Below the pieces are notes generated by a model that saw only the letters and a program-made list of their open reading frames with translations, made no database searches and was not told where the DNA came from. From positions 310,001 through 374,000 of the forward strand of contig NZ_JAASQL010000002.1 in NCBI RefSeq assembly GCF_011762155.1: DNA of 64,000 nucleotides, read 5' to 3'. Positions 24,402 through 39,259 of the stretch are shown one piece after another. A program made the position numbers and the translations under genes. Each line of letters begins with the position of its first letter. Position 1 is the stretch's first letter. The DNA comes from Wenyingzhuangia heitensis. GTDB taxonomy: Bacteria > Bacteroidota > Bacteroidia > Flavobacteriales > Flavobacteriaceae.

Positions 24402-27206
24402 ATGAAACAAAACTACACATTCCCAAAAACCTTTATTCTTCTCTTTTTTCTGTTTTCAACAACCATTTTCGCACAATCACATGATGATCATAATGACGAA
24501 GATGATACGAGAGGTGCAGTAACGTTTCAGAATTTATTCAATAACAATAGAGATGAAATTACTCTTTATGAAAATGAATTCAAACAAAAAAAATCTAAAG
24601 ATAGAGCACCCAAAGTAAATGGAGTTCAAACTGTAGAGCCTCAAAAAACATCAGTTCCTATTCATGTAATCATGATTAAAAAAGCAGATGGGACAGGAAA
24701 CGATTTAACCGAAGCAGATATAGATTATTCCATAGGAACCATAAACACCTATTTTAACGAGGTTTCATTAGACTTTTTTAGGTGTGATGAGATTACTTAT
24801 ATTTTAGATGACGATTTGTTTCTTTTTGGAGACAGCGGTGATCCCGATGATGATGAAGATTACTTGGTAAATAATGGATACATAAAAAGCCAAATGGTAA
24901 ACTTAATTGTTACAGATTTAGCATCTGGTAACGGATATGCTTATTATCCTGGAGGTAGAGATATTATAGCAATGGATAGGAATGTTTTAACCAACGGAAC
25001 TACTATTTCTCATGAAATGGGACACTTTTTTGGATTGCAGCATACTCATAACAACCATGATCATGAGGATGTAAGCAAAAGAGAATTGATAGATGGATCT
25101 AACTGTAGCAGTGCAGGTGATGGATTTTGCGATACTCCAGCAGATCCTAACGTACAAGAAAATGGAAATGTAGATGCAAATTGTATGTATACAGGTACTA
25201 TTACAGATGCTAATGGAGCTACATTTAACCCAGATACAAGAAACTTAATGTCTTATTCAAGAAGAATTTGTAGGGATCATTTTAGTGCTGAACAACAAGC
25301 TAGAATGTATGCTATTTTTACCTCTAATGTAAGAGGTGATTTTGTGTGTCCTTCTTTAAGTATAGATTATACAACCGATACCACTGCATCTTGTAACACA
25401 TCGCTTACTGTTCAATTTACAGATGCTAGCACAGGAGCAACTTCATGGGCTTGGGATTTTAATAATGATGGAATTACAGATAGTACTTTGCAAAATCCAT
25501 CTTATACTTTTTCAGAAGGTGAGCATACGGTTGCTTTAAGTATTTCTGATGGAAGTGAAACTATAACAAAGGTTTTTTACAATAGAAAAATATATGTAGG
25601 AGGTAAGTCTTTACCTTACACTCAAGATTTTGATACGTTTGTTAAAAATGAAGATCCTGTAGATAATTGGACTGTAATAGCTGCAGCTTCTAATTTTAAA
25701 TGGTACGTACATAGTGGTGCAACACCAACTAATGGTACAGGTCCAAAGACAGATGCCTCGGGAACTTCTAGTGGTGTTTATATGTATACCAAATCTTATT
25801 CTTTTTCTGGTGAAACCTATGCTGCAGGTGATGTAACTCAGTTAATATCTCCTTGTTTTCAAACAGGAGTGAGTCCTGTACTTTCTTTTAAATACCATAT
25901 GTATTCATCTACAGCAGCCTCTAAATTTGGAGAGTTTTATGTAGACGTTAGTGCTGATGGAGGAGCAACCTGGGAAAAAACAGTAGCTTCCTTTTTAGAT
26001 CCTACACAAGATAGCGATACAGATGCTTATTCTACAGCTTCTATCTTTTTGCCTGAATATGCAAATCAAATTGTGAAAATTAGATTTAGAGTGGTAAGAG
26101 GAAATACATCTTATAACGATGTTGCGATAGACGATGTAAAGTTTGAAAATAAATCTACAGTAGATTTTACGGCTGATAAAACGGAAGGTATTTGTTTAAA
26201 TTCATTAGATGTAAGTTTTACGAACAACAGTATCTTGACCACGGGAGCAATAACCTCTTGGACTTGGGATTTTAATAATGATGGAACAGTAGACAGCACA
26301 GAACAAAACCCTATACATACTTTTTCGGTAGGAACTTTCAACGTGAAATTAACGGTATCTAATGGATCGGAGACTTTATCAAAAATATTTACAGATACGT
26401 CAATTCTTGTTGGAGCAGAAAAAACAGTAGGTTATACAGAAAACTTTAACGGTTTTACAGAAAATCAAGCATTAGATTCTGATGGATGGACAACTATAGC
26501 AGATGCTTCTGGTTATACCTGGGAAACAGAAATAGGAACTACAGTCTCGGGTAATACGGGGCCTACGGCTGATGGAGATGGAGATGCAACTACCAATTAT
26601 ATGTTTACTGAAGCAAGTGGGTTTAGCAATACCAATGAAGCTCAATTGATTTCACCATGTGTGTTATTGGGAGACAATACTTTGTTAAAATTTAAATATC
26701 ACCTTTATAGCACCGCTGCTAGTTTTGGAGCCTTGCATGTAGATATTAGTACAGATGGTGGAACTACGTTTTCTAATACACTAATCAGTTATGAAAATTC
26801 CGTGCAAACCGCCAATGCAGACCCTTTTATAGAGGAAGTTATCAACTTATCGGCTTATGCAAATCAAATGGTAAAGATTAGATTTAGAGCAGTTAGAGGA
26901 AATACATTTAATAATGATATTGCTATAGATAATGTTTCCTTTACCAATGATGCTGTTTTAAGTACTGATGTTGTTACGAATAAAAATATAACGATCAGTC
27001 CTAACCCAGTAAGCTCGGTATTGTCAGTTAATTATCCAGAAGGTAAAGAAGTTGCTTACCATATTCAAGATATGTTAGGACAAAGAGTTTTAGTGGGACA
27101 AGTAATTCATCAACAAATAAATGTAGCGCTGTTACAAAATGGAGTTTATTTTTTAACCATTGCTGTTGATAATAAACAAATAGTAAAAAAGTTTGTTAAA
27201 GAATAA
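24402..27206 (+). CDS. Secreted M43-family zinc metalloprotease with two PKD domains and T9SS signal
   Basis: This 934-residue protein has a signal peptide (cleavage near FAQS), a pappalysin-type catalytic domain with HEMGHFFGLQH (HExxHxxGxxH, near residue 205) and a Met-turn NLMSYSR (near 281). Two copies follow of a PKD domain (WAWDFNNDGITD, WTWDFNNDGTVD) plus a jelly-roll domain (VKIRFR.VRGNT.NND.AIDDV). It ends in a type A T9SS sorting domain (ISPNPVSS...KKFVKE). It should digest proteins outside the cell. A terminator follows at 27229-27260. Confidence 0.92.
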   Translation: MKQNYTFPKTFILLFFLFSTTIFAQSHDDHNDEDDTRGAVTFQNLFNNNRDEITLYENEFKQKKSKDRAPKVNGVQTVEPQKTSVPIHVIMIKKADGTGNDLTEADIDYSIGTINTYFNEVSLDFFRCDEITYILDDDLFLFGDSGDPDDDEDYLVNNGYIKSQMVNLIVTDLASGNGYAYYPGGRDIIAMDRNVLTNGTTISHEMGHFFGLQHTHNNHDHEDVSKRELIDGSNCSSAGDGFCDTPADPNVQENGNVDANCMYTGTITDANGATFNPDTRNLMSYSRRICRDHFSAEQQARMYAIFTSNVRGDFVCPSLSIDYTTDTTASCNTSLTVQFTDASTGATSWAWDFNNDGITDSTLQNPSYTFSEGEHTVALSISDGSETITKVFYNRKIYVGGKSLPYTQDFDTFVKNEDPVDNWTVIAAASNFKWYVHSGATPTNGTGPKTDASGTSSGVYMYTKSYSFSGETYAAGDVTQLISPCFQTGVSPVLSFKYHMYSSTAASKFGEFYVDVSADGGATWEKTVASFLDPTQDSDTDAYSTASIFLPEYANQIVKIRFRVVRGNTSYNDVAIDDVKFENKSTVDFTADKTEGICLNSLDVSFTNNSILTTGAITSWTWDFNNDGTVDSTEQNPIHTFSVGTFNVKLTVSNGSETLSKIFTDTSILVGAEKTVGYTENFNGFTENQALDSDGWTTIADASGYTWETEIGTTVSGNTGPTADGDGDATTNYMFTEASGFSNTNEAQLISPCVLLGDNTLLKFKYHLYSTAASFGALHVDISTDGGTTFSNTLISYENSVQTANADPFIEEVINLSAYANQMVKIRFRAVRGNTFNNDIAIDNVSFTNDAVLSTDVVTNKNITISPNPVSSVLSVNYPEGKEVAYHIQDMLGQRVLVGQVIHQQINVALLQNGVYFLTIAVDNKQIVKKFVKE

Positions 27207-29693: not shown

Positions 29694-30378
29694 GTATAAG
29701 ATTATAGCTTTTGATGCAGACGATACACTTTGGGTAAACGAACCTTATTTTAGAGAAGCCGAAGATCAATTTGCCAAGCTATTATCTATTTATGAAACTG
29801 AGAATAAAATTCAGCAAGAATTATACAAAGTAATTACAGGAAATATTCCTTTGTACGGTTACGGAGTAAAAAGCTGTATTTTATCTATGATACAGTGTGC
29901 TACAGAATTGTCTAATAATACACTACCTGCCAAAATTACACAGCAAATATTAGCAATAGGAAAGGAGATGTTAACCAAACCTATTGAGTTGTTACCAGGT
30001 ATTGTGGAAGTGTTAGAAGAGCTTTCTAAAACATATACGTTAATCGTATTAACCAAAGGAGATTTATTAGATCAAGAAAAAAAATTAGAACGTTCAGGTT
30101 TGTTAAAATACTTTCACCATGTAGAGGTCATGAGCGAAAAGAACCCTGAAGGTTATCAAAGAATATTAAATCATTTAGATATTGCTTCCAAAGATTTTTT
30201 AATGATAGGAAACTCTTTAAAGTCTGATGTATTACCTGTTCTAAAAATTGGAGCAAATGCCATTCATATTCCTTTTCATTCTATTTGGCAGTTCGAGACT
30301 GTAGCTCAAGATGTTATAGATACACATGAGTATCCAATACTTACATCTGCTAAAAAAATTATTGAATTTTTACAATAA
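29686..30378 (+). CDS. HAD-family hydrolase
   Basis: This 230-residue protein has HAD motif I FDADDTLW near the start, motif II VLTKGD, and motif III/IV in a Lys-containing SEKNPEGYQ segment and MIGNSLKSD. The cap is helical, as in phosphoglycolate-phosphatase-like and nucleotidase-like members. Translation is probably coupled to kdsB by an eight-base overlap. The natural phosphate ester is unknown. Confidence 0.88.
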   Translation: MAKYKIIAFDADDTLWVNEPYFREAEDQFAKLLSIYETENKIQQELYKVITGNIPLYGYGVKSCILSMIQCATELSNNTLPAKITQQILAIGKEMLTKPIELLPGIVEVLEELSKTYTLIVLTKGDLLDQEKKLERSGLLKYFHHVEVMSEKNPEGYQRILNHLDIASKDFLMIGNSLKSDVLPVLKIGANAIHIPFHSIWQFETVAQDVIDTHEYPILTSAKKIIEFLQ

Positions 30379-30451
30379 AGGTATGTTTTTTGCGATTTAA
30401 TAGAGAATAAACAAATGTTATCTATTATATTAGCAAAAAAAAAAGAAAAAG

Positions 30452-30649
30452 ATGGCGAGAGAAATGTACTCTTATACCTTGACCATACTAGAAAAAGTTA
30501 GTTTTGATTTGGACTTGTTTGTTAATGAGTTAAACAAAGCAACCAAGCGATTGTTACCACACGAAGTAGGAGAATTGCAGTTATGGTTAAACCGATTTGT
30601 ATTTATGCATCCGCATTTAGAACCTGCTAGGAAATTAATAACTTCTTAA
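30452..30649 (+). CDS. Conserved small protein of unknown function
   Basis: This 65-residue protein has the features of a compact helical cytoplasmic protein with no membrane segment. I recall similar short hypothetical proteins in Bacteroidota but no function. A strong terminator follows directly (30660-30690), which supports a real transcription unit ending here. Confidence 0.7.
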   Translation: MAREMYSYTLTILEKVSFDLDLFVNELNKATKRLLPHEVGELQLWLNRFVFMHPHLEPARKLITS

Positions 30650-30659
30650 TAGAATAAAA

Positions 30660-30690
30660 AAATCTAAGCTAAAATTAGCTTAGATTTTTT
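30660..30690 (+). terminator. Terminator before the copper-type locus
   Basis: A perfect 12-bp stem (AAATCTAAGCTA, 30660-30671, complement 30676-30687) with a 4-base loop and a T run. It separates the housekeeping run from the MbnP/MbnH locus. Confidence 0.9.
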
Positions 30691-30699
30691 TATTCTATT

Positions 30700-30707
30700 T
30701 ATCTTTG
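30700..30707 (+). promoter_or_regulatory. -7 element just before the first small Cys-rich gene (TATCTTTG)
   Basis: TATCTTTG fits TAnnTTTG and ends six bases before the ATG at 30714. It implies a nearly leaderless transcript for the first gene of the locus. No clear -33 element is seen, because the terminator occupies that spot. Confidence 0.45.
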
Positions 30708-30713
30708 CATTCA

Positions 30714-31088
30714 ATGTTTAAAAAATTCATCATTATAACTCTTTTAACAGCCCTGTCTGTTAGACCTGCATTTTATGTGGGAAATGTGTTGTATTATGAA
30801 ACGCATTTAAGCGAAATTATAGAAAAGTACTGTGTTAACAAAGACAAGCCAGAGCTACAATGTAACGGACAATGTCATTTAGCAAAGCAATTAAATCCTG
30901 TTGTAGAGCATGGTTCTTCAAAAGCTACAGTAGATATTAGTACGGCTTTTTTTCCTGTGTTTTATCAAGAAATAAAACAGGATACAGCTACTTTTATACC
31001 TACACATTTAACTACTTCTCATTTTAAAAATCAGTATTCGTATTATTTTTTAATGAGTAAAGATATGTTAAAACCTCCTATTGTATAA
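30714..31088 (+). CDS. Small exported Cys-rich protein, copy 1
   Basis: I choose the ATG at 30714 over an in-frame TTG at 30705, giving 124 residues. A hydrophobic N-terminal segment (about 4-25) is followed by Cys40, Cys50 and Cys54 in CVNKDKPELQCNGQC (C-x9-C-x3-C). The copy at 34229 has the same block with one difference. The rest is divergent. It opens the first small protein-MbnP-MbnH module. An exported Cys triad next to copper-type genes suggests metal binding, but this is inference. The family has no function known to me. Confidence 0.72.
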   Translation: MFKKFIIITLLTALSVRPAFYVGNVLYYETHLSEIIEKYCVNKDKPELQCNGQCHLAKQLNPVVEHGSSKATVDISTAFFPVFYQEIKQDTATFIPTHLTTSHFKNQYSYYFLMSKDMLKPPIV

Positions 31089-31100
31089 GTTTTAAATTCA

Positions 31101-31120
31101 GGGCATAACTATGCCTTTTT
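31101..31120 (+). terminator. Weak hairpin between small Cys-rich gene and MbnP gene, copy 1
   Basis: GGCAT pairs with ATGCC across a 4-base loop and is followed by TTTTT. It lies 13 bases past the stop of the small gene and could attenuate transcription into the MbnP gene. Confidence 0.5.
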
Positions 31121-31192
31121 GGTACTTTTTGTTTTATAAAGAAACAAAGAGTTAACCACTAGTTATTATTTAAAATTTATACAAAACATAAA

Positions 31193-32089
31193 ATGAAAAA
31201 TTTAAGAAAATGGGCTTTTTTAGCCTTAACGACTACTGCATTAATTTCTTGTAACAACGATGATGATTCTATGGGAAATGAAAACGAAGGAACACATGTT
31301 TCTGCCGTTTTAAAATTTGAGCATTCTTTGGGATTAGGAGATGAATTTACCTTAACAGATTCTGAGGATAATCAACAAAATTTAGAGTTGACCAAATTTA
31401 AGTTCATAGTGTCTGACGTTAAAGTAACAACGACCAATGATGAGGTAGTAGCCTTGTCTAACAACGATGCTGCTGAATTAATAGATTTAGCTAATGCTGA
31501 TGAAACGGATGTTGTAAGAATGTATTTAACAGGTATACCAGAAGGAAGCTATAAAAGTATTTCTTTTGGTGTAGGAGTAAGCCAAGAAGTTGCAAGCGGA
31601 AGTACTGAAAATCAAATAAAATTAATGGAATTGGCAGAGCAAGATAGTGAAGACATGGTATGGTCTTGGAATCCTAATTCTTACATTTTTTCTAAAATAG
31701 AAGCAACTAATTTAGACGTAACAACAACTGCTCCAACAAATTTACAAATACATGTTGGTAATAAAGGAGGAGTTGATGGATTTAGAACAGTTGAATTAAT
31801 TTTTCCGGAAACTTTAACAATTGCTTCTAAAATATCTCCAAGTATACATACAAATGTGTCAATAGAAAAATTATTTACACCAGATGCTCCTGGAATAGAA
31901 GTTGCTTATGATGCCATTGGTGCACATGGAGGTACAGATGATGCTTCTATCAATTTTTCAGACAATTATGCAAATATTTTTGAAATTGAACATTTACACC
32001 CAAACGAAGCAGCAATCAATTTGGAAGATGTAGAAATGGACAATCACGCTCATGATGATGAGGATTCTGAAGACTCACATTCTCACTAA
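31193..32089 (+). CDS. MbnP-family copper-type lipoprotein with His-rich tail, copy 1
   Basis: This 298-residue lipoprotein (Cys20, ALISC) has the beta-sandwich pattern of MbnP: a KFIVSDVKV segment near 70-78, GIPEGSYKSISFGVGV near 114-129, and an M-x-W-x-W motif at 155-159 followed by YIFSKIEA. In characterised MbnP a tryptophan is converted to kynurenine by MbnH to form a Cu(I) site. Which Trp would be used here is not established. The last about 20 residues (DNHAHDDEDSEDSHSH) are rich in His, Asp and Glu and look metal-binding. An MbnH-like gene follows. Confidence 0.8.
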   Translation: MKNLRKWAFLALTTTALISCNNDDDSMGNENEGTHVSAVLKFEHSLGLGDEFTLTDSEDNQQNLELTKFKFIVSDVKVTTTNDEVVALSNNDAAELIDLANADETDVVRMYLTGIPEGSYKSISFGVGVSQEVASGSTENQIKLMELAEQDSEDMVWSWNPNSYIFSKIEATNLDVTTTAPTNLQIHVGNKGGVDGFRTVELIFPETLTIASKISPSIHTNVSIEKLFTPDAPGIEVAYDAIGAHGGTDDASINFSDNYANIFEIEHLHPNEAAINLEDVEMDNHAHDDEDSEDSHSH

Positions 32090-32097
32090 CAACATCA

Positions 32098-32129
32098 CAA
32101 TTACAGCTATTTTTTAATAGCTGTAATTG
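32098..32129 (+). terminator. Hairpin between MbnP and MbnH genes, copy 1
   Basis: A 14-bp stem (CAATTACAGCTATT and complement) with a T-rich loop lies between the two genes and is followed by a U-rich but interrupted tract. It is a likely partial terminator or processing site, and the second copy has a hairpin at the same place. Confidence 0.65.
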
Positions 32130-32146
32130 TATTATTATCTAAGGAT

Positions 32147-33259
32147 ATGAAATACAATACAATTTTATTTGTGTTTTTGCTTGTTATGGTAAGTTGTGGA
32201 CAAGATGAGGAAGAGGTCTATACTGATTTTGAGATTTCGTTTGAACAACCTGCTAATTTTCCTGCAACTACTTATGACTTTGAGGACAATCCTATTACTA
32301 CAGATGGATTTATATTAGGTCGAAAGTTGTTTTATGACAATAGATTGTCTTTAAACAACGGAATTAGTTGTGCAGAATGTCACAATCAATCACATGCATT
32401 TACACACCACGGACATGATTTAAGTGAAGGTGTGCATGCAGGTGTTGTGGGAACAAGAAATTCACAACCCATACAAAATCTAGCTTTTTTAGAGGACTTT
32501 ACTTGGGATGGAGCTAAGGAAATGTTATTTGACCAACCACTCATCCCCATTACAGAAGAAGTAGAAATGGATGAAACGATGGAGAATGTAATTGCCAAAT
32601 TAAAAGAAGACTCAGTATATCAAGAATTGTTTACAGCCGTATTTCAATCAGAAGATGCCATTAACAGTGTTAATCTATTAAATGCACTATCTCAGTTTAT
32701 GGGAGCTATGGTGTCATCAAATTCTAAATATGACAAATATGTACGAGGAGAAGTAGGAGGATCCTTTACAGATTTAGAAAAAGAAGGTTTGGCTTTGTTT
32801 CAACAAAAATGTGCCAATTGCCATAGTGGAGAATTGTTTACCAATCAAGAATTTATCAACAACGGAATAGGAGAAAACTCTAGTCTACCTGATGAAACAG
32901 GAAGAGCAAGAATTAATTCACCAAATCCTTTTGCTACCGTAGAAGAATTAAAAACTAGAGACGATTATTATCAATTTAGAGTGCCTAGTTTAAGAAATGT
33001 AATAAAAACATACCCATATATGCACGATGGTCGATTTGTTATGCTTTCTAAAGTATTAGATTTTTATGATGATGATACGTATCCCTTAATTACAAAAATG
33101 GATAATTTAGATAGTAGATTGATTCAGACCAACTCGAACGGAGAGGAGATCTTAGGAATCCCAATGACAGAAGGTGAAAAAGTTGCCATTTTAGCTTTTT
33201 TAGAAACCTTAACAGATAACGAATTTATAAACGATGAACGTTTTGCAAAACCTAATTAA
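32147..33259 (+). CDS. MbnH/MauG-like di-haem cytochrome c peroxidase-family lipoprotein, copy 1
   Basis: This 370-residue lipoprotein (Cys17, MVSC) has two haem c sites: CAECH at 75-79 and CANCH at 222-226. The Trp between the haems that relays electrons in this superfamily appears in FTWDGAK (about 118-124). Family members either reduce peroxide or, as MauG and MbnH, oxidise tryptophan on a partner protein. An MbnP-like gene directly upstream favours the second role. The gene overlaps the next by 26 bases. Confidence 0.87.
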   Translation: MKYNTILFVFLLVMVSCGQDEEEVYTDFEISFEQPANFPATTYDFEDNPITTDGFILGRKLFYDNRLSLNNGISCAECHNQSHAFTHHGHDLSEGVHAGVVGTRNSQPIQNLAFLEDFTWDGAKEMLFDQPLIPITEEVEMDETMENVIAKLKEDSVYQELFTAVFQSEDAINSVNLLNALSQFMGAMVSSNSKYDKYVRGEVGGSFTDLEKEGLALFQQKCANCHSGELFTNQEFINNGIGENSSLPDETGRARINSPNPFATVEELKTRDDYYQFRVPSLRNVIKTYPYMHDGRFVMLSKVLDFYDDDTYPLITKMDNLDSRLIQTNSNGEEILGIPMTEGEKVAILAFLETLTDNEFINDERFAKPN

Positions 33260-34133
33260 AATAATATTTACCTTATTAATACTAATATCTACAAACACTT
33301 ACGCATGCGATGTTTGTGGTTGTGGATCTTCTAACAGCAGCAGTTTTGCCAACGTTTTAGGAGGGAATTATATAGGTTTTAGTTATAATTATATGTATTT
33401 TCAATACATACAAAAGACTGCGGATCCAGACTTTCCTTTGGCAGAAGATCATGTAAATACAGTAAGTGTTTCGGGTCAATATCATATTACCGATAAAATA
33501 CAAATTAATGCCACCATTCCTTACCGATTTAATAATAGGTACAAAGCCTCTGGAAATATAAGCAACAGTGGTATGGGAGATATAAGTGTTTATGGATTGA
33601 TTAATGTATTGCACTCAGAAAGTAATCATAGTTTAAAGTTAGGAGCGGGATTAAAATTACCTACAGGTAAATTTGATTTGCAAAATTCTAGCTTAAACCA
33701 AACATCAGCAGCACAGTTGGGAACAGGGAGTTTAGACATACTCTTGCCAGTTCAATATTATTATACTAACAATCAATGGTCTTTTAATGCTAGTGCTATG
33801 TATTTTATAAAAGGGACTAATGATGATGAATTTAAATATGGAGATCAAACCCAAGTAAACGTAAGTACATCTTATGTTTTTCCTGTGGCTACTAATATAA
33901 GTTTAGCACCTAGTGTAGGAGTTAGTTATGACCATTTTTTAGCATCAGAAAGGTTTGATATTGTAGATTCTAGAACCAAAGGATACATGACCAATGCGAG
34001 TATTGGAGTACAAATGGAAACAGCACATTTAATTTTGGGAGTCAATACACAATTGCCAATTGCTCAAAACTTAATAGATAATGAGGTTACTTTCAATCAG
34101 TCTGTAGGAGTATATACCTATTTTAAGTTCTAA
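33234..34133 (+). CDS. Outer-membrane beta-barrel protein with N-terminal CxxCxC motif
   Basis: This 299-residue protein has a signal peptide whose predicted mature end begins at Cys25: CDVCGCG, giving Cys25, Cys28 and Cys30, then a Ser/Asn-rich linker. The rest is alternating strands with aromatic girdles and a terminal YTYFKF, as in outer-membrane porin or transporter proteins. The start overlaps the upstream MbnH gene by 26 bases, implying coupled translation. A metal-binding tip on a barrel within a copper-type locus suggests metal passage or capture, which is inference. No second copy is present in the window. Confidence 0.75.
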   Translation: MNVLQNLIKIIFTLLILISTNTYACDVCGCGSSNSSSFANVLGGNYIGFSYNYMYFQYIQKTADPDFPLAEDHVNTVSVSGQYHITDKIQINATIPYRFNNRYKASGNISNSGMGDISVYGLINVLHSESNHSLKLGAGLKLPTGKFDLQNSSLNQTSAAQLGTGSLDILLPVQYYYTNNQWSFNASAMYFIKGTNDDEFKYGDQTQVNVSTSYVFPVATNISLAPSVGVSYDHFLASERFDIVDSRTKGYMTNASIGVQMETAHLILGVNTQLPIAQNLIDNEVTFNQSVGVYTYFKF

Positions 34134-34228
34134 ATAATTTTATAGACAAAACAAACTCCTTTTTAACATATAATGTGTGTTGCTACCTCTTTTAGAAGGT
34201 ATCAATACACGTTGTGATGTAATTTTCT

Positions 34229-34597
34229 GTGAAAAAAGCAATTTTATTATTAACCTTATTTATAATATTCAAACCAGTATTTCCTGTGTTTGAGTACATA
34301 ACTTGTTACGATTATATTGTAAACGAGTTGTGTGTGAATAAAGACAAACCAGAGTTGCAATGTAACGGAAAGTGTTACTTAATGAAAGAACTTTCTAAAA
34401 CCTCAGAAAGCGAAAAGAACAAAGGAGACACCACAAAAAAAACGGTTTATGAATTTCCAGTCTTATTTTGTCAAACCATAGAAAACACAAGACTTCCGTT
34501 TCCTATCTCAGGAGTAATTTTAAATGTAGTTTATAAAAATTTGTATAGTTATTTAATTTCAAGCTCTCTTTTTAGACCACCAAATTTAAAGTGGTAA
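34229..34597 (+). CDS. Small exported Cys-rich protein, copy 2
   Basis: This 122-residue protein starts with GTG at 34229, since no in-frame ATG precedes the hydrophobic N-terminus. It has a hydrophobic segment (about 4-22), Cys26, then Cys35, Cys45 and Cys49 in CVNKDKPELQCNGKC, the same block as copy 1. The similarity outside that block is low, so the duplication is old or the block is under strong constraint. It opens the second module. Confidence 0.72.
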   Translation: MKKAILLLTLFIIFKPVFPVFEYITCYDYIVNELCVNKDKPELQCNGKCYLMKELSKTSESEKNKGDTTKKTVYEFPVLFCQTIENTRLPFPISGVILNVVYKNLYSYLISSSLFRPPNLKW

Positions 34598-34599
34598 AG

Positions 34600-34623
34600 A
34601 GTCAATAAGCTGTTTTATTGACT
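34600..34623 (+). terminator. Hairpin between small Cys-rich gene and MbnP gene, copy 2
   Basis: AGTCAATAA pairs perfectly with TTATTGACT around a 6-base loop, right after the small gene. It occupies the same place as the hairpin in copy 1, but the trailing T run is short. Confidence 0.5.
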
Positions 34624-34718
34624 TTGTAAAAAGGATAAGATTAAAAATAAATTATATAAAAATAAAGATGTTCAGATCTCTATAACTAAAAAGAGGAACA
34701 TTTAAAAAATTACAAAAA

Positions 34719-35570
34719 ATGAAAAATTTTAACAAAGGATTGGCAATCATTTTTGCAGCAGTATTGACTTTAACTTCTTGTACAGAAGATGAAGCAGAAG
34801 CAATACCTACGGTACCAACGACTAACAATGTAACTTTAGAATTTAACAACACTTTTGGAGAGGATGCTATTGTTTTAGGAGATGCAACATCAGCAGAAGC
34901 TACAGTAAACACTTCTACAGAAGGACAGATTCACCATTTTTCTGAATTAAAATATGTGATTAGCAACATTAGATTGATTAATGAAGAAGATATTGAAATT
35001 CATTATAATATCAACGATTTAGATAACGGAGCCACAGTTGTAAATCAAGCTAAAGAAGAAACATTACAGTATGTGTTAAATAACATTCCATCTGCAACGT
35101 ATACTAAAATCCAATTTGGATTGGGTGTAAAGTCAAATTTAAACACTTTAGATCAAGAGGCTTTTCCAATTTTTTATGCAGCAGCTGGTAAAAACGATAC
35201 TGAAATGCACTGGGAATGGGGAACAGGTTACCGTTTTACTAAAATTGAAGGTTTTTATGGGGAAGATAACACAGAATTATCCATCCATACCGGAAGTACA
35301 GATGATGGAGGTCAAGGTGTAGATGCTTATAGAGACATTACATTAGAATTGCCTACAAATTTAGTGGTTGGAATTAATGCTCCAAAAATTGTAATTAAAG
35401 CAGATTTTAATACGTTGTTAAGCGGAGCTACTACAATTACTTTGGGAGAAGATAATGCAACTCCAAGTATTCACACCTCTGTAAATATGATGCAGTTTGT
35501 TGATAATTTAGGAGGAAATGGAGATGATAATATAACAGGAATGTTTTCTGTAACAAGTGTAGAAAACTAA
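34719..35570 (+). CDS. MbnP-family copper-type lipoprotein, copy 2
   Basis: This 283-residue lipoprotein (Cys21, LTSC) shows the MbnP pattern: LKYVISNIRL near 77-86, IPSATYTKIQFGLGV near 123-137, and M-H-W-E-W at 163-167 followed by GYRFTKIEG. The aromatic motif is closer to the methanotroph type than copy 1. Unlike copy 1 it has no His-rich tail. A matching MbnH-like gene follows after a strong hairpin. The kynurenine-type copper site is inferred from the family. Confidence 0.8.
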   Translation: MKNFNKGLAIIFAAVLTLTSCTEDEAEAIPTVPTTNNVTLEFNNTFGEDAIVLGDATSAEATVNTSTEGQIHHFSELKYVISNIRLINEEDIEIHYNINDLDNGATVVNQAKEETLQYVLNNIPSATYTKIQFGLGVKSNLNTLDQEAFPIFYAAAGKNDTEMHWEWGTGYRFTKIEGFYGEDNTELSIHTGSTDDGGQGVDAYRDITLELPTNLVVGINAPKIVIKADFNTLLSGATTITLGEDNATPSIHTSVNMMQFVDNLGGNGDDNITGMFSVTSVEN

Positions 35571-35581
35571 AATTAAATTTT

Positions 35582-35624
35582 AGAGCCAGTGGACTTTTAA
35601 AAAAAGTGCTGGCTCTTTTGTTTT
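35582..35624 (+). terminator. Terminator between MbnP and MbnH genes, copy 2
   Basis: AGAGCCAG pairs with CTGGCTCT, with an inner ACTTTT/AAAAGT stem, and is followed by TTTGTTTT. Expression of the downstream di-haem gene would depend on read-through or its own promoter. Confidence 0.75.
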
Positions 35625-35645
35625 GATAAAACTGAAACACTTAGT

Positions 35646-36671
35646 ATGCTAAAAACAATAAGAAATATCTCTATAATACTATTATTGGTATCTTGTAATC
35701 ATGATGATTCTGAAATTATTTCTTATAACAATCCAGAACTAGAATTACACCTTCCAGAAGGTTTTCCGGAGCTCAACAATTCGTTTTTTGACAATAAACC
35801 CACAAAATATGGTGTGGAATTAGGAGAAAAGCTATTCTTTGAAAAAAAACTAAGTGCAGATAATAGTATTTCCTGTGCTAGTTGTCACATAAAAGCTCAT
35901 GCCTTTGCAGATACACATGCACAAGCTATTGGAATTAAAGGGAGAATAGGATTTAGGAACACACCACCAATTCAGAATTTGGCTTTTGTAAAATTTTACA
36001 ATTGGGACGGAAACAAACGTAGGTTAGAAGAACAACCTTTGGTGCCTATTATTACTCACGAAGAAATGGATTCGTCTATTTTAGAAGTGATAGGCAAACT
36101 TAAAACGGAAAAAGAATACCTAGATTTATTTCACCAAGCTTTTGGTGATGAGGAAATTACGGGGAATAGAATATACAATAGTATCGCTCAATATGAATAT
36201 ACATTGATTTCTTCCAATAGTAAATATGATCAAGTAAAAAGAAATGAAGGAACTTCTTTTACAGAGAGTGAAACAGAAGGATATCAGGTTTTTCAAGAAA
36301 AATGTATCACTTGTCACAGTACAGAATTGTTTACCGATCAGAGTTTTAGAAATATTGGTTTTCCTGTAAATCCAAATACAGATGAAGCGGGTCGTGCAAG
36401 AGTTACGGGAAATTTAGAGGATGTGATGAAGTTTAGAGTACCCACTTTACGAAATATAGAGGTAACAGCTCCATATGGTAGTTTTGGACAATTTGTTACA
36501 TTAAAAGAGCTTTTAGATTATCTAGATAATGGAGTGGTAGTAGCCGATAATTTAGATCCTATTTTAAAAAATAATGAAAATAAAATTCCTCTGTCTGAAG
36601 ATGAAAAACTGAATTTGATCTCATTTTTAAAAACGCTAACAGATGCTAAATTTTTAGAAATAAGTAATTAA
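35646..36671 (+). CDS. MbnH/MauG-like di-haem cytochrome c peroxidase-family lipoprotein, copy 2
   Basis: This 341-residue lipoprotein (Cys17, LVSC) has haem sites CASCH (77-81) and CITCH (220-224), and the inter-haem Trp in YNWDGNK (about 118-124). It shares the frame of copy 1 (PPIQNLAF, SSNSKYD, FRVPTLRN) with about 30 fewer residues. It closes the second module and is followed by a terminator. Its natural partner is expected to be the MbnP-like protein just upstream. Confidence 0.87.
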   Translation: MLKTIRNISIILLLVSCNHDDSEIISYNNPELELHLPEGFPELNNSFFDNKPTKYGVELGEKLFFEKKLSADNSISCASCHIKAHAFADTHAQAIGIKGRIGFRNTPPIQNLAFVKFYNWDGNKRRLEEQPLVPIITHEEMDSSILEVIGKLKTEKEYLDLFHQAFGDEEITGNRIYNSIAQYEYTLISSNSKYDQVKRNEGTSFTESETEGYQVFQEKCITCHSTELFTDQSFRNIGFPVNPNTDEAGRARVTGNLEDVMKFRVPTLRNIEVTAPYGSFGQFVTLKELLDYLDNGVVVADNLDPILKNNENKIPLSEDEKLNLISFLKTLTDAKFLEISN

Positions 36672-36698
36672 AAAATAGTGGAAAAGGAAAGAGAATTT

Positions 36699-36736
36699 TA
36701 AAACCGTTTTTGATTTATTTCAAAAGCGGTTTTTTT
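36699..36736 (+). terminator. Terminator of the MbnP/MbnH locus
   Basis: AAAACCGTTTTTG pairs with CAAAAGCGGTTTT (one bulge) and ends in a T run. Confidence 0.8.
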
Positions 36737-36802
36737 GTGATAAAAACCTTTTGAACTCCTGTTAAAATCCTATTTCTTTGCAAGAATAAAAAATAGTAGC
36801 TT

Positions 36803-39259
36803 TTGTTGTTTCAACCTTACTTTGTAGATGTTTTATTGCCACTTCCTTTAGAAAGGATGTTCACGTACCGTATTACGGAAGAAGAATATCATTTTTTAAA
36901 AACAGGAATGCGAGTGGCTGTTCCTTTTGGAAAAAGTAAAATATATACAGGAATTGTTTACAAATTACATGAGCAAGAACCAGAAGCGTATGAAGCCAAA
37001 GATATTTATCAAATTTTAGATGATACACCTGTTTTAAATGCTAGCCAACTAAAACATTGGGAATGGATTGCTACTTATTATATGTGTTCTTTGGGAGAGG
37101 TATTAAGAGCTGCATTTCCTTCTGTATTTTTACTAGAGAGCGAAACTATTGTATTGGCAAATCCTAATTTTGAGGAACCCAATAGTTTAACTCCCGATGC
37201 GTATTTAATTTATGAAGCATTACAACATCAATCCCAATTAACCATTGCTCAGGTAGTAAATATTTTGTCTAAAAAGAAAGTATTTCCCATTCTTAAAAGC
37301 ATGATTGATGTAGAAGCTATTCGTTTAAAAGAAGAAATATACGAACAATATCAACCTAAAATGGTTGCTTATATTCGTTTGGCTGATGCATGGGAAGATA
37401 AAGAAAAGTTACAAGAATTGTTAGATGTATTATCTCGATCGGAAAAACAAAGAACTTTGGTGATGCATTATTTTATGATCAAAGCCAAAGACCCATCTCC
37501 TATAAAAAAGAAAGAACTTTTAGAAACATCAGGAATTAGTGCTGCTGTTTGTAAAGGATTAGAAAATAAAGGAATTTTTGAAGCTTATGAAATTCAAACC
37601 GATAGAATTGTTTTTGACAAGGCAAGTCAGCAAATTCCAAATTTAAGTGACGATCAACAAAATGCATTTCATCAAATTAAAGAGTGTTTTACCTCTAAAG
37701 ATGTTTGTTTGTTTTATGGTGTTACCGGAAGTGGAAAAACAGAAGTATATGCTCACTTAATCAAAGAAGTAATTGCTACGGGGAAACAAGTGTTGTTTTT
37801 AGTGCCAGAAATTGCTTTAACCACCCAGTTAATTATTCGTTTGCAAAAGTTTTTTGGAGATGATTTAAGTGTGTATCATTCTAAATATTCTCAGAATGAA
37901 AGAGCAGAAGTTTGGAATCATATTTTAACAGGATCAGACAAAGCCAAAATTATTTTAGGAACTAGATCTGCTACTTTATTGCCATTTGCCAATTTAGGAA
38001 TGGTGATTGTAGATGAAGAACACGAGGCTTCTTACAAACAATTTGATCCTGCACCAAGATACAACGCTCGTGATGCTGCTATTGTATTGGCAAAAATTCA
38101 TAAAGCCACTATTTTACTTGGTTCTGCTACCCCAAGTTTAGAATCTTTTTACAATACCAAACTTAATAAATATGGATTGGTAACTTTAAATAGACGATTT
38201 GGGAATGTACAAATGCCTAAAATTCAGTTGATAGACATTAAAGAAAAGCATCGAAAAAAGCAGATGACAGGACATTTTTCTGATGTTTTGTTAAAAGAAA
38301 TAACAGAAGCTTTGGAATTGGGAGAGCAAGTAATTTTGTTTCAGAACAGACGTGGTTTTGCTCCGTTGTTAGAGTGTGAAACTTGTGGGGTAAGTCCACA
38401 ATGCCCTAATTGCGATGTAAGTTTAACAGAGCATAAATTTAAACAAGAATTACGTTGTCATTATTGCGGATATCATAGAGCCATTCCTAGACAATGTGAT
38501 GCTTGCGGAAGTACAGATTTAAATAGCAAAGGTTTTGGAACCGAACAAATAGAACAAGAATTGTTAACACTTTTCCCAAAACATAATATTGGTAGGTTAG
38601 ATTTAGATACTACAAGAGGAAAATACGGATATCAAAAAATAATAGAAGCTTTTCAACACAAAGAAATTGATATTTTGGTAGGTACTCAAATGTTATCAAA
38701 AGGATTAGATTTTAAAAACGTGAGTTTGGTAGGGGTTTTAAATGCAGATAATATGCTAAATTTTCCTGATTATAGAGCGCATGAACGTAGTTATCAAATG
38801 CTAACACAAGTATCGGGTAGGGCAGGACGTAGCCAAAAACAAGGAAACGTTTTTATTCAGACTTTTAATCCTTATCACCAAATATTACAGCAAGTAACCA
38901 CTAGTAGTTATGAGCAAATGTATGATGAACAAATAACAGATAGACGAAACTTTTTTTATCCTCCTTACTATAGAGTCATTCAGATTACCCTAAAACACAA
39001 AGATTTTAATTTGTTAAATGATGGGGCAGAATGGTTAGGGAAATCTCTTAAAAATAGCTTTGGAAAAAACTTACTAGGACCTACGGCACCATCGGTAGCT
39101 AGAGTAAGAAATCAATATATTAAGCAAATAATTATTAAAATACCTCCCAAACAATCGGTACCTGCTACCAAAGAATACATTAAAAAAGTAAGAACCATGT
39201 TTGAGTCTATTGGGAAATTTAGAGCCATTAGAATTAATATGGATGTAGATGCGTATTAA
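36803..39259 (+). CDS. priA: Primosomal protein N' (PriA helicase)
   Basis: This 818-residue DNA helicase restarts stalled replication forks. An N-terminal DNA-binding domain begins FVDVLLPLPLERMFTY, Walker A is GVTGSGKTE (about 306) and the DEAH-type box is VDEEHEASYKQ. Two zinc-binding Cys sets follow (CETCGVSPQCPNC, CHYCGYH, CDACG). No ATG is available: an in-frame stop lies at 36797-36799, so translation must start at TTG 36803 or 36806. Confidence 0.96.
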   Translation: MLFQPYFVDVLLPLPLERMFTYRITEEEYHFLKTGMRVAVPFGKSKIYTGIVYKLHEQEPEAYEAKDIYQILDDTPVLNASQLKHWEWIATYYMCSLGEVLRAAFPSVFLLESETIVLANPNFEEPNSLTPDAYLIYEALQHQSQLTIAQVVNILSKKKVFPILKSMIDVEAIRLKEEIYEQYQPKMVAYIRLADAWEDKEKLQELLDVLSRSEKQRTLVMHYFMIKAKDPSPIKKKELLETSGISAAVCKGLENKGIFEAYEIQTDRIVFDKASQQIPNLSDDQQNAFHQIKECFTSKDVCLFYGVTGSGKTEVYAHLIKEVIATGKQVLFLVPEIALTTQLIIRLQKFFGDDLSVYHSKYSQNERAEVWNHILTGSDKAKIILGTRSATLLPFANLGMVIVDEEHEASYKQFDPAPRYNARDAAIVLAKIHKATILLGSATPSLESFYNTKLNKYGLVTLNRRFGNVQMPKIQLIDIKEKHRKKQMTGHFSDVLLKEITEALELGEQVILFQNRRGFAPLLECETCGVSPQCPNCDVSLTEHKFKQELRCHYCGYHRAIPRQCDACGSTDLNSKGFGTEQIEQELLTLFPKHNIGRLDLDTTRGKYGYQKIIEAFQHKEIDILVGTQMLSKGLDFKNVSLVGVLNADNMLNFPDYRAHERSYQMLTQVSGRAGRSQKQGNVFIQTFNPYHQILQQVTTSSYEQMYDEQITDRRNFFYPPYYRVIQITLKHKDFNLLNDGAEWLGKSLKNSFGKNLLGPTAPSVARVRNQYIKQIIIKIPPKQSVPATKEYIKKVRTMFESIGKFRAIRINMDVDAY

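Follow-up and report, generated by a model that had tools for sequence, protein, structure and literature searches.

The passage of copper across the outer membrane of Bacteroidota is, to our knowledge, poorly understood. Among described systems, the closest to the locus reported here is the pair formed by MbnP and its di-haem partner MbnH; in M. trichosporium the first Trp of MbnP is reportedly converted to kynurenine, and the resulting site of His, Met and kynurenine is said to bind Cu(I) tightly (Manesis and colleagues, 2021). Already in 2013, pairs of this kind had been described in organisms that do not produce methanobactin (PMC3621798). MauG enzymes conserve an axial haem ligand, Tyr294, in place of the Met or His of peroxidases (PMC7567364), and in the outer-membrane protein OprC, which imports copper, Cys143, Met147, His323 and Met325 bind the metal (PMC8610252). 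Control by a leader open reading frame (ORF) has been described for Bordetella CruR, an exported DUF2946 protein with a CXXC motif and RAPP; it is the first product of a copper-repressed operon that also encodes a TonB receptor and a PepSY_TM protein, and its effect on this operon is post-transcriptional. OprC-type receptors and MbnPH-like genes occur in operons with DUF2946 (PMC9426467), and CutF of Rhodobacter works in a related way (PMC9973294). Here, we analyse a seven-gene locus at positions 30714-36671 of a 64,000-nucleotide stretch of Wenyingzhuangia heitensis DNA (the window; positions 310,001 to 374,000 of contig NZ_JAASQL010000002.1), which an earlier sequence-only reading had described as a tandemly duplicated MbnP/MbnH locus, and we propose that it most likely serves surface copper acquisition under leader-ORF control. 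Its features are as follows.

30650..30697, + strand: terminator-like stem-loop separating the locus from the upstream genes (20-pair stem, then a T-rich tail; consensus scan only)
30714..31088, + strand: cys1, small Cys-motif protein of 124 residues, probable CutF/CruR-like copper-sensing leader ORF heading module A; hydrophobic N terminus; C-terminal KPPIV; 104-nucleotide gap to P1
31193..32089, + strand: P1, MbnP-family lipoprotein (PF20243, 4.1e-28); lipobox C20; M155, W157, W159 and H187; His-rich C terminus
32097..32130, + strand: stem-loop of 15 pairs with a T-rich tail in the P1-H1 gap
32147..33259, + strand: H1, MbnH-like di-haem lipoprotein; CAECH and CANCH; Tyr307 aligned with MauG Tyr294; PYMHDG intact
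33234..34133, + strand: barrel, PF13557-type outer-membrane barrel (PF13557 match at 2e-10); N-terminal CDVCGC
34166..34220, + strand: strong RNA hairpin in the barrel-cys2 gap (-23.9 kcal/mol, z -4.5; no Rfam family)
34229..34597, + strand: cys2, second leader-like ORF with Cys motif and PP, 122 residues, heading module B; GTG start; ends RPPNLKW; 121-nucleotide gap to P2
34719..35570, + strand: P2, MbnP-family lipoprotein (PF20243, 4.2e-35); lipobox C21; M163, W165, W167 and H190; clade B, with support of 100 in the Shimodaira-Hasegawa-like approximate likelihood ratio test (SH-aLRT)
35581..35617, + strand: stem-loop with a T-rich tail in the P2-H2 gap (hairpin scan)
35646..36671, + strand: H2, clade-B MbnH-like di-haem lipoprotein; CASCH and CITCH; PYGSFG replacing PYMHDG; Leu293 at the axial-Tyr position of H1; Tyr292, invariant in the clade
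36700..36733, + strand: terminator-like stem-loop closing the locus before priA (consensus scan)

The ORF list of the window bears out the seven genes, their place and their order on one strand, cys1-P1-H1-barrel-cys2-P2-H2, as first read from the letters. The explanation that we favour as a whole, at a probability of roughly 0.6, is that two long-diverged copper modules, A (cys1-P1-H1-barrel) and B (cys2-P2-H2), were joined at this site, that both are controlled by leader ORFs, and that their MbnP proteins carry kynurenine Cu(I) sites for acquisition under copper limitation.

The modular organization is best seen in other genomes. PF20243 is present in 119 of the 249 genomes of the family, from which 131 neighbourhoods were fetched; searching with P2 added 27 named loci, which lean to type B, and the survey comprised 158 other MbnP neighbourhoods, our own two matches and two partial matches of one genome (G124) being left out. 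Two loci, L054 and L060, have an identical P and contigs of equal length and very likely represent one genome counted twice. The order cys-P-H-barrel (type A) occurs in 34 of the 158, a recurrence greater than chance; the small Cys-rich protein and the barrel, which had been set apart as two further protein types outside the described pair, belong to module A elsewhere too. In type B, found in 35, cys is followed by two larger genes, in some loci by another cys, and then by P and H. The other 89 neighbourhoods form a rest class, type C, nearly all with P-H without cys or barrel, which includes L121 (no H nearby), L101 (H 4 kb away), and L046 and L047, both of the B clade. None of the 158 contains two MbnP genes in one neighbourhood. 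The occurrence of MbnP/MbnH outside methanotrophs, which the sequence-only reading had presented as news, is not new, given the 119 genomes and the pairs already known (PMC3621798).

The two modules do not look like recent copies of each other. The simplest account of two cys-P-H sets standing in line would be a recent tandem duplication of one set, and "tandemly duplicated" remains apt for the layout; as an origin we rejected it as extremely improbable, because P1 and P2 are only 25% identical and because the trees place each pair with other genomes and not with its neighbour. In the P tree (160 MbnP rows), P2 falls within a clade of 38 rows (SH-aLRT 100) and P1 with A-order rows of three other genomes, one of the same genus (100), and in the H tree H2 lies in a 39-row B clade (100) and H1 in a 47-row set with the A rows (96). 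Within the genus, six of seven genomes, the window genome included, have MbnP, and the same flanking genes surround the locus in all six: A stands alone in four and A is followed by B in two, the window genome and G252. Because the H2 proteins of these two are sisters (98) and their P2 proteins are nearest by path, at a fork without support, a single acquisition of module B in the genus is suggested. In the same slot, a further genome, G250 (L208:8595-11912), carries an A module with only 30% (P), 51% (H), 48% (barrel) and 60% (cys) identity to that of the window between flanking genes that are mostly 81-97% identical, one small ORF being 69% identical; since a divergent module lies between highly similar flanks, it seems to have been swapped as a unit.

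Both lipoproteins belong to the MbnP family, as had been proposed: in the hidden Markov model search, P1 and P2 scored 99 and 122 bits against PF20243, whose gathering score in Pfam is 27, and the genome has no other match. The predicted M-x-W-x-W motif is present in each (MVWSW at 155-159 of P1 and MHWEW at 163-167 of P2), and a simple pattern finds a lipobox Cys in P1 and P2, as well as in H1 and H2, for which the sequence-only reading had not mentioned one. The putative copper-site residues are almost invariant in the MbnP alignment, with Met, Trp1, Trp2 and His each in 34 of 34 type A rows, Met in 34 and the other three in 35 of 35 type B rows, and the His in 160 of 160 rows overall. Type C rows (n = 89) show an alignment gap at Met in 74 and Val at the second Trp in 60; because Met and the second Trp are mostly missing in the alignment, type C MbnP may have a function different from that of A and B. 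Single-sequence PDB searches with P1 and P2 found no MbnP chain, and an alignment search met the MbnP structure 7l6g at E 0.35 only, so that the mapping of residues onto 7l6g is weak. As a side observation, some type C loci (for example L114 and L135) hold MbnP genes of a third lineage, next to a choice-of-anchor B protein and, by eye, suf-like iron-sulphur genes. Five further MbnP rows (L096-L099 and L102) diverge strongly and share a long branch in the tree; their loci have in common a protein of about 450 residues two genes on.

Each MbnP also has an MbnH-like di-haem partner of its own, as the sequence-only reading had noted: H1 and H2 match CCP_MauG in Pfam, contain two CxxCH motifs each and have MbnH (TIGR04039) as their best NCBIfam family. 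The best PDB match is 6e1c (MbnH) for H1 and 1iqc, a bacterial di-haem peroxidase, for H2. In a pairwise alignment counted by hand, Tyr307 of H1 aligns with position 294 of the MauG chain, and H1 has the axial Tyr. At this position, Tyr is found in 34 of 35 type A rows (the remaining row is a gap) and 86 of 89 type C rows; the type B rows have Phe (21) or Leu (14) in 35 of 35, with a Tyr always one residue earlier. Moreover, type B H rows read PYGSFG where nearly all others read PYMHDG, so that in 35 of 35 B loci Ser occupies the place of the His of HDG. Tyr is missing from three type C rows, two of them the B-clade rows L046 and L047 and the third a distant peroxidase of L095 that is not beside its P, and Phe or Leu for the axial Tyr was also seen in G252, L046, L047 and L211-L213, the last three picked by the PYGSFGQF pattern; a DNA pattern for PYGSFGQF has matches in 10 of 395 genomes of the phylum, the window genome among them. 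Judged from these alignments, Phe or Leu at the axial-Tyr position of clade B appears to be a new point beyond the known MbnP/MbnH pairs.

The loss of the axial Tyr and of the His of HDG in 35 of 35 B loci, together with the best PDB match of H2 to a di-haem peroxidase, could mean that the kynurenine copper site is made in module A only, the H2 clade being peroxidases, or enzymes with another target, that lost the mechanism with the axial Tyr, and P2 binding copper unmodified or not at all. We regard this as somewhat unlikely. At this position clade B has neither of the peroxidase residues, Met and His; the P2 clade keeps Met (34 of 35), Trp1, Trp2 and His; P and H are adjacent in 35 of 35 B loci; the clade-B enzymes keep the haem motifs, the Gln and the Glu in 35 of 35 and the inter-haem Trp in 34 of 35; and NCBIfam places H2 nearest MbnH. 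We favour a probable kynurenine Cu(I) site in both modules.

The genes that accompany module B elsewhere point to copper uptake. Of the two larger genes behind cys in the 35 B loci, one encodes a lipoprotein with a YtkA-like match (34 loci) and the next a TonB receptor, present in every case (33 by neighbour clustering, and L058 and L068 by a separate check). The only PDB matches of the B-type receptor at E 0.01 are OprC entries, and two of these receptors matched the OprC model TIGR01778 at 1e-22 and 7e-21 (80 and 75 bits, below the 472-bit cut-off). The C, M, H and M of the CxxxM-HxM residues are present in 36 of 36 receptors (34 aligned, one of them from L047, and both motifs in two more), and this set of all four copper ligands supports a likely copper role. 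In module A, the corresponding outer-membrane candidate is the barrel, with an N-terminal CDxCxC in 35 of 35 homologues. Searches for the OprC-like receptor and the YtkA-like protein gave no match in six genomes of the genus, the window genome among them, with four control genomes positive and the seventh genus genome not searched; because no receptor match was obtained in these six genomes, P2 and H2 seem to work here without their usual receptor. Thus, of the two parallel modules first proposed, there are indeed two, each with its own enzyme, and the parallel is incomplete in that H2 is without the axial Tyr and module B here is without its receptor.

A role in copper defence or storage at the cell surface, instead of uptake, would agree with the unmatched receptor in the window genome, with the His-rich tail on P1 and with the tight Cu(I) binding reportedly found for M. 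trichosporium MbnP. We consider such a role quite unlikely, because the partner of module B in 35 of 35 loci is a receptor with the copper site of OprC, an importer (PMC8610252), and because CorA is copper-repressible (PMC3912023). Acquisition, most likely under copper limitation, remains our preferred purpose for the locus.

The third element of the model is the small Cys-rich protein. Among 93 members from these loci, the motif C-x-N ... C-x-G-x-C is near invariant (C 92, N 89, C 93, G 93 and C 93), and 90 of 93 have PP within the last 15 residues, compared with 20 of 527 other mechanically called ORFs of 80-149 residues in the same loci. The C-terminal motif is mostly [KRH]PP; PP lies 2-4 residues from the end in 80 of 93, and 63-73 residues separate the third Cys from PP in 89 measurable members of the 93. 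Both cys1 and cys2 have a hydrophobic N terminus and would pass the filters that the CutF survey set for size, PP and spacing. Of 148 phylum genomes, 50 contain a match to the family, and in 17 of 20 loci hand-picked from the 50 positive genomes a TonB receptor, MbnP or barrel is encoded within the next two same-strand genes (3 of 20 have none); the receptors of two of these loci match TIGR01778 at 1e-75 and 5e-74, below its cut-off. A third copy in the window genome (L246:5154-9380, G000 contig C5) heads genes for a 772-residue TonB receptor and a 469-residue PepSY_TM protein. TIGR01778 is absent among the matches of this receptor, the best being siderophore- and haem-type models, and a copper role for it would rest on the layout only.

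This build and placement suggest that the small Cys-rich protein is a probable copper sensor of the leader-ORF type, similar to CutF and CruR, and the resemblance is the second new point of this analysis. The conserved Cys motif and hydrophobic N terminus would also suit a periplasmic copper chaperone or assembly factor, as would the lack of conserved RNA structure behind the ORF; a chaperone that is no leader ORF leaves unexplained the PP 2-4 residues from the end (80 of 93), the near-fixed distance from the Cys motif to PP and the position ahead of differing copper-related genes in 17 of 20 hand-picked loci, and we find it fairly unlikely. Given the leader-ORF interpretation, the family bears on two conflicting reports: copper-linked RAPP/RGPP leader ORFs are described as missing from Bacteroidota in one (PMC12992588), and many Bacteroidota are counted among CutF-like proteins in the other (PMC9973294). 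The Bacteroidota members of the CutF survey may well include our family, and leaders with [KRH]PP may reconcile the two accounts.

Bacteroidota lipoproteins bound for the surface carry a lipoprotein export signal of acidic residues just behind the lipid Cys (PMC5080379), and P1 (CNNDDDS), P2 (CTEDEAE), H1 (CGQDEEE) and H2 (CNHDDSE) all fit such a signal. By a simple pattern that requires a lipobox with two or more acidic residues among the five that follow it, 27 of 33 type A, 31 of 32 type B and 67 of 74 type C P proteins have an acidic tail, as do 17 of 25, 28 of 35 and 34 of 57 H proteins, respectively, against 51 of 135 lipoprotein-like control ORFs. Because acidic residues follow the lipid Cys, MbnP is probably displayed on the cell surface.

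The locus had also been called methanobactin-independent. No methanobactin enzyme is encoded in the window, and the sole PF05114 (MbnB-type) protein of the genome lies on another contig (L266, G000 contig C1, at about 792 kb); a short methanobactin precursor was not searched for. This protein scores over the HvfB cut-off and reaches 52 of 325 bits against MbnB, so that no MbnB-type enzyme was found. The neighbours of this HvfB-family multinuclear non-haem iron-dependent oxidase are an HvfC-like protein, which scores under the cut-off of its model, and a precursor with a match to the HvfA repeat model. Because the genome thus has an HvfABC-type metallophore operon, independence from methanobactin is unproven. 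A cupredoxin-like gene adjoins this operon.

RNA structure is concentrated between P and H. Among gaps of 50-350 nucleotides, a fold with z < -3 occurs in the P-H gap in 16 of 19 type A, 23 of 26 type B and 2 of 4 type C loci, compared with 64 of 300 controls, and a hairpin of at least 7 pairs is present in 22 of 34, 30 of 35 and 3 of 84, respectively (the median gap of type C being 6 nucleotides). Such a stem-loop would fit a partial terminator or a protector of the mRNA end that keeps substrate above enzyme. The Rfam scan of 30300-36900 gave no family, and sigma-70-like promoters were in no excess (31, compared with 31.3 in shuffles). Further upstream, at 24402-27206, the window encodes a 934-residue protein with M43 peptidase, MAM, PKD and secretion-tail domains.

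Several observations weigh against the favoured explanation. For the MbnP and MbnH assignments, P1 and P2 reach 37 and 58 bits with the NCBIfam equivalog TIGR04052, far below its 140-bit cut-off, and H1 and H2 reach 230 and 202 bits with TIGR04039, short of 362.85 bits; H2, with Leu293, has no Tyr at the axial position. For the leader, a search of the window genome for DUF2946 (PF11162) at E values up to 1 gave nothing. The gap behind the leader ORF is hardly more structured than control gaps, with a median z of -1.72 (A, cys-P), -1.38 (B, cys-other) and -0.52 (B, cys-P), with controls at -1.09, and terminator-like hairpins follow 17 of 91 leader ORFs, where shuffles predict about 6, but also 125 of 667 other genes. 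A general attenuator hairpin behind the leader ORF was accordingly rejected: the window hairpins there are present (z -4.8 and -3.3), but the survey found no excess over other genes. The acidic tail, seen also in type C P proteins (67 of 74), is not special to A and B. Finally, P1 joins the main group of A-order MbnP weakly (81), and the FastTree P tree has a starred set (97) that unites P2 with most A rows and excludes P1. For this reason, the label of module A leans on gene order and H1 more than on P1, which is a long-branched line of its own.

Together, our data suggest a model whereby modules A and B, after an ancient divergence, came to lie next to each other in a single lineage of the genus. 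At the head of each would stand a putatively exported leader ORF with a Cys motif and PP, which senses copper while being made and controls the genes behind it. The MbnP lipoprotein, probably surface-displayed to judge from its acidic residues, would carry the copper site: by analogy with M. trichosporium MbnP, MbnH would oxidise its first Trp to kynurenine, and M-x-W-x-W and the His would then form the Cu(I) site, while the P-H stem-loop could keep the enzyme scarcer than its substrate. Copper would then be handed on at the outer membrane, in module A to the CDxCxC barrel and in module B elsewhere to the OprC-like receptor; because this receptor was not found in the genus, P2 would have to use the barrel or another receptor here. 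Either H2 carries out the Trp oxidation with no axial Tyr, or it does something else.

A more far-reaching claim, which we hold as rather doubtful in its full form, is that clade-B MbnH forms a class of Trp-modifying di-haem enzymes and makes kynurenine copper sites without the axial Tyr of MauG and MbnH, perhaps via the invariant neighbouring Tyr, and that Bacteroidota run such surface copper-capture modules by a copper-sensing, ribosome-stalling leader family of their own, mostly with [KRH]PP and not RAPP. Clade-B MbnH offers a natural test of the need for the axial Tyr in MauG-type chemistry, and the locus as a whole provides a testable set of kynurenine copper sites on lipoproteins, enzymes, outer-membrane partners and a likely copper-sensing switch. 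A literature search that covered mostly open-access papers met no description of modules A and B, of clade-B enzymes without the axial Tyr or of this leader family ahead of MbnPH in Bacteroidota, which is weak evidence of absence.

How the locus stands to known systems can then be summarized. With MbnP/MbnH (TIGR04052/TIGR04039; PDB 7l6g and 6e1c) it has in common the adjacent pair, the MbnP domain, M-x-W-x-W with the His, and the di-haem partner; it differs in that P and H are lipoprotein-like, in scores under both NCBIfam cut-offs, in the added leader ORF and barrel, and in an H2 without the axial Tyr. The title of 7l6g names a four-Cys motif, whereas P1 and P2 have one Cys each and thus no such motif. 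CorA/CorB and MopE/SACCP of methanotrophs resemble it as a surface copper protein with kynurenine beside a di-haem peroxidase gene (PMC3621798). H1 and H2 are like MauG and the di-haem peroxidases in their two CxxCH haems, inter-haem Trp and CCP_MauG domain; H1 has the MauG-type Tyr, but H2 has neither this Tyr nor the peroxidase Met or His. The module-B receptor outside this genus shares the CxxxM-HxM residues of OprC/NosA (TIGR01778), although it scores below the cut-off and is without a match in the window genome. As for the small Cys-rich protein, it resembles CruR and CutF (DUF2946) in its short length, Cys motif and C-terminal PP, is probably exported like them, and is encoded by the first gene of copper operons (PMC9426467, PMC9973294) that likewise hold TonB receptors, MbnPH-like or PepSY_TM genes. 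It differs from them in the lack of a DUF2946 match, in a three-Cys motif, in having mostly [KRH]PP instead of RAPP, and in the 63-73 residues from the third Cys to PP, compared with 45 between the motifs of CruR. The third copy, with its TonB receptor and PepSY_TM protein, reproduces the layout of Bordetella cruR (PMC9426467).

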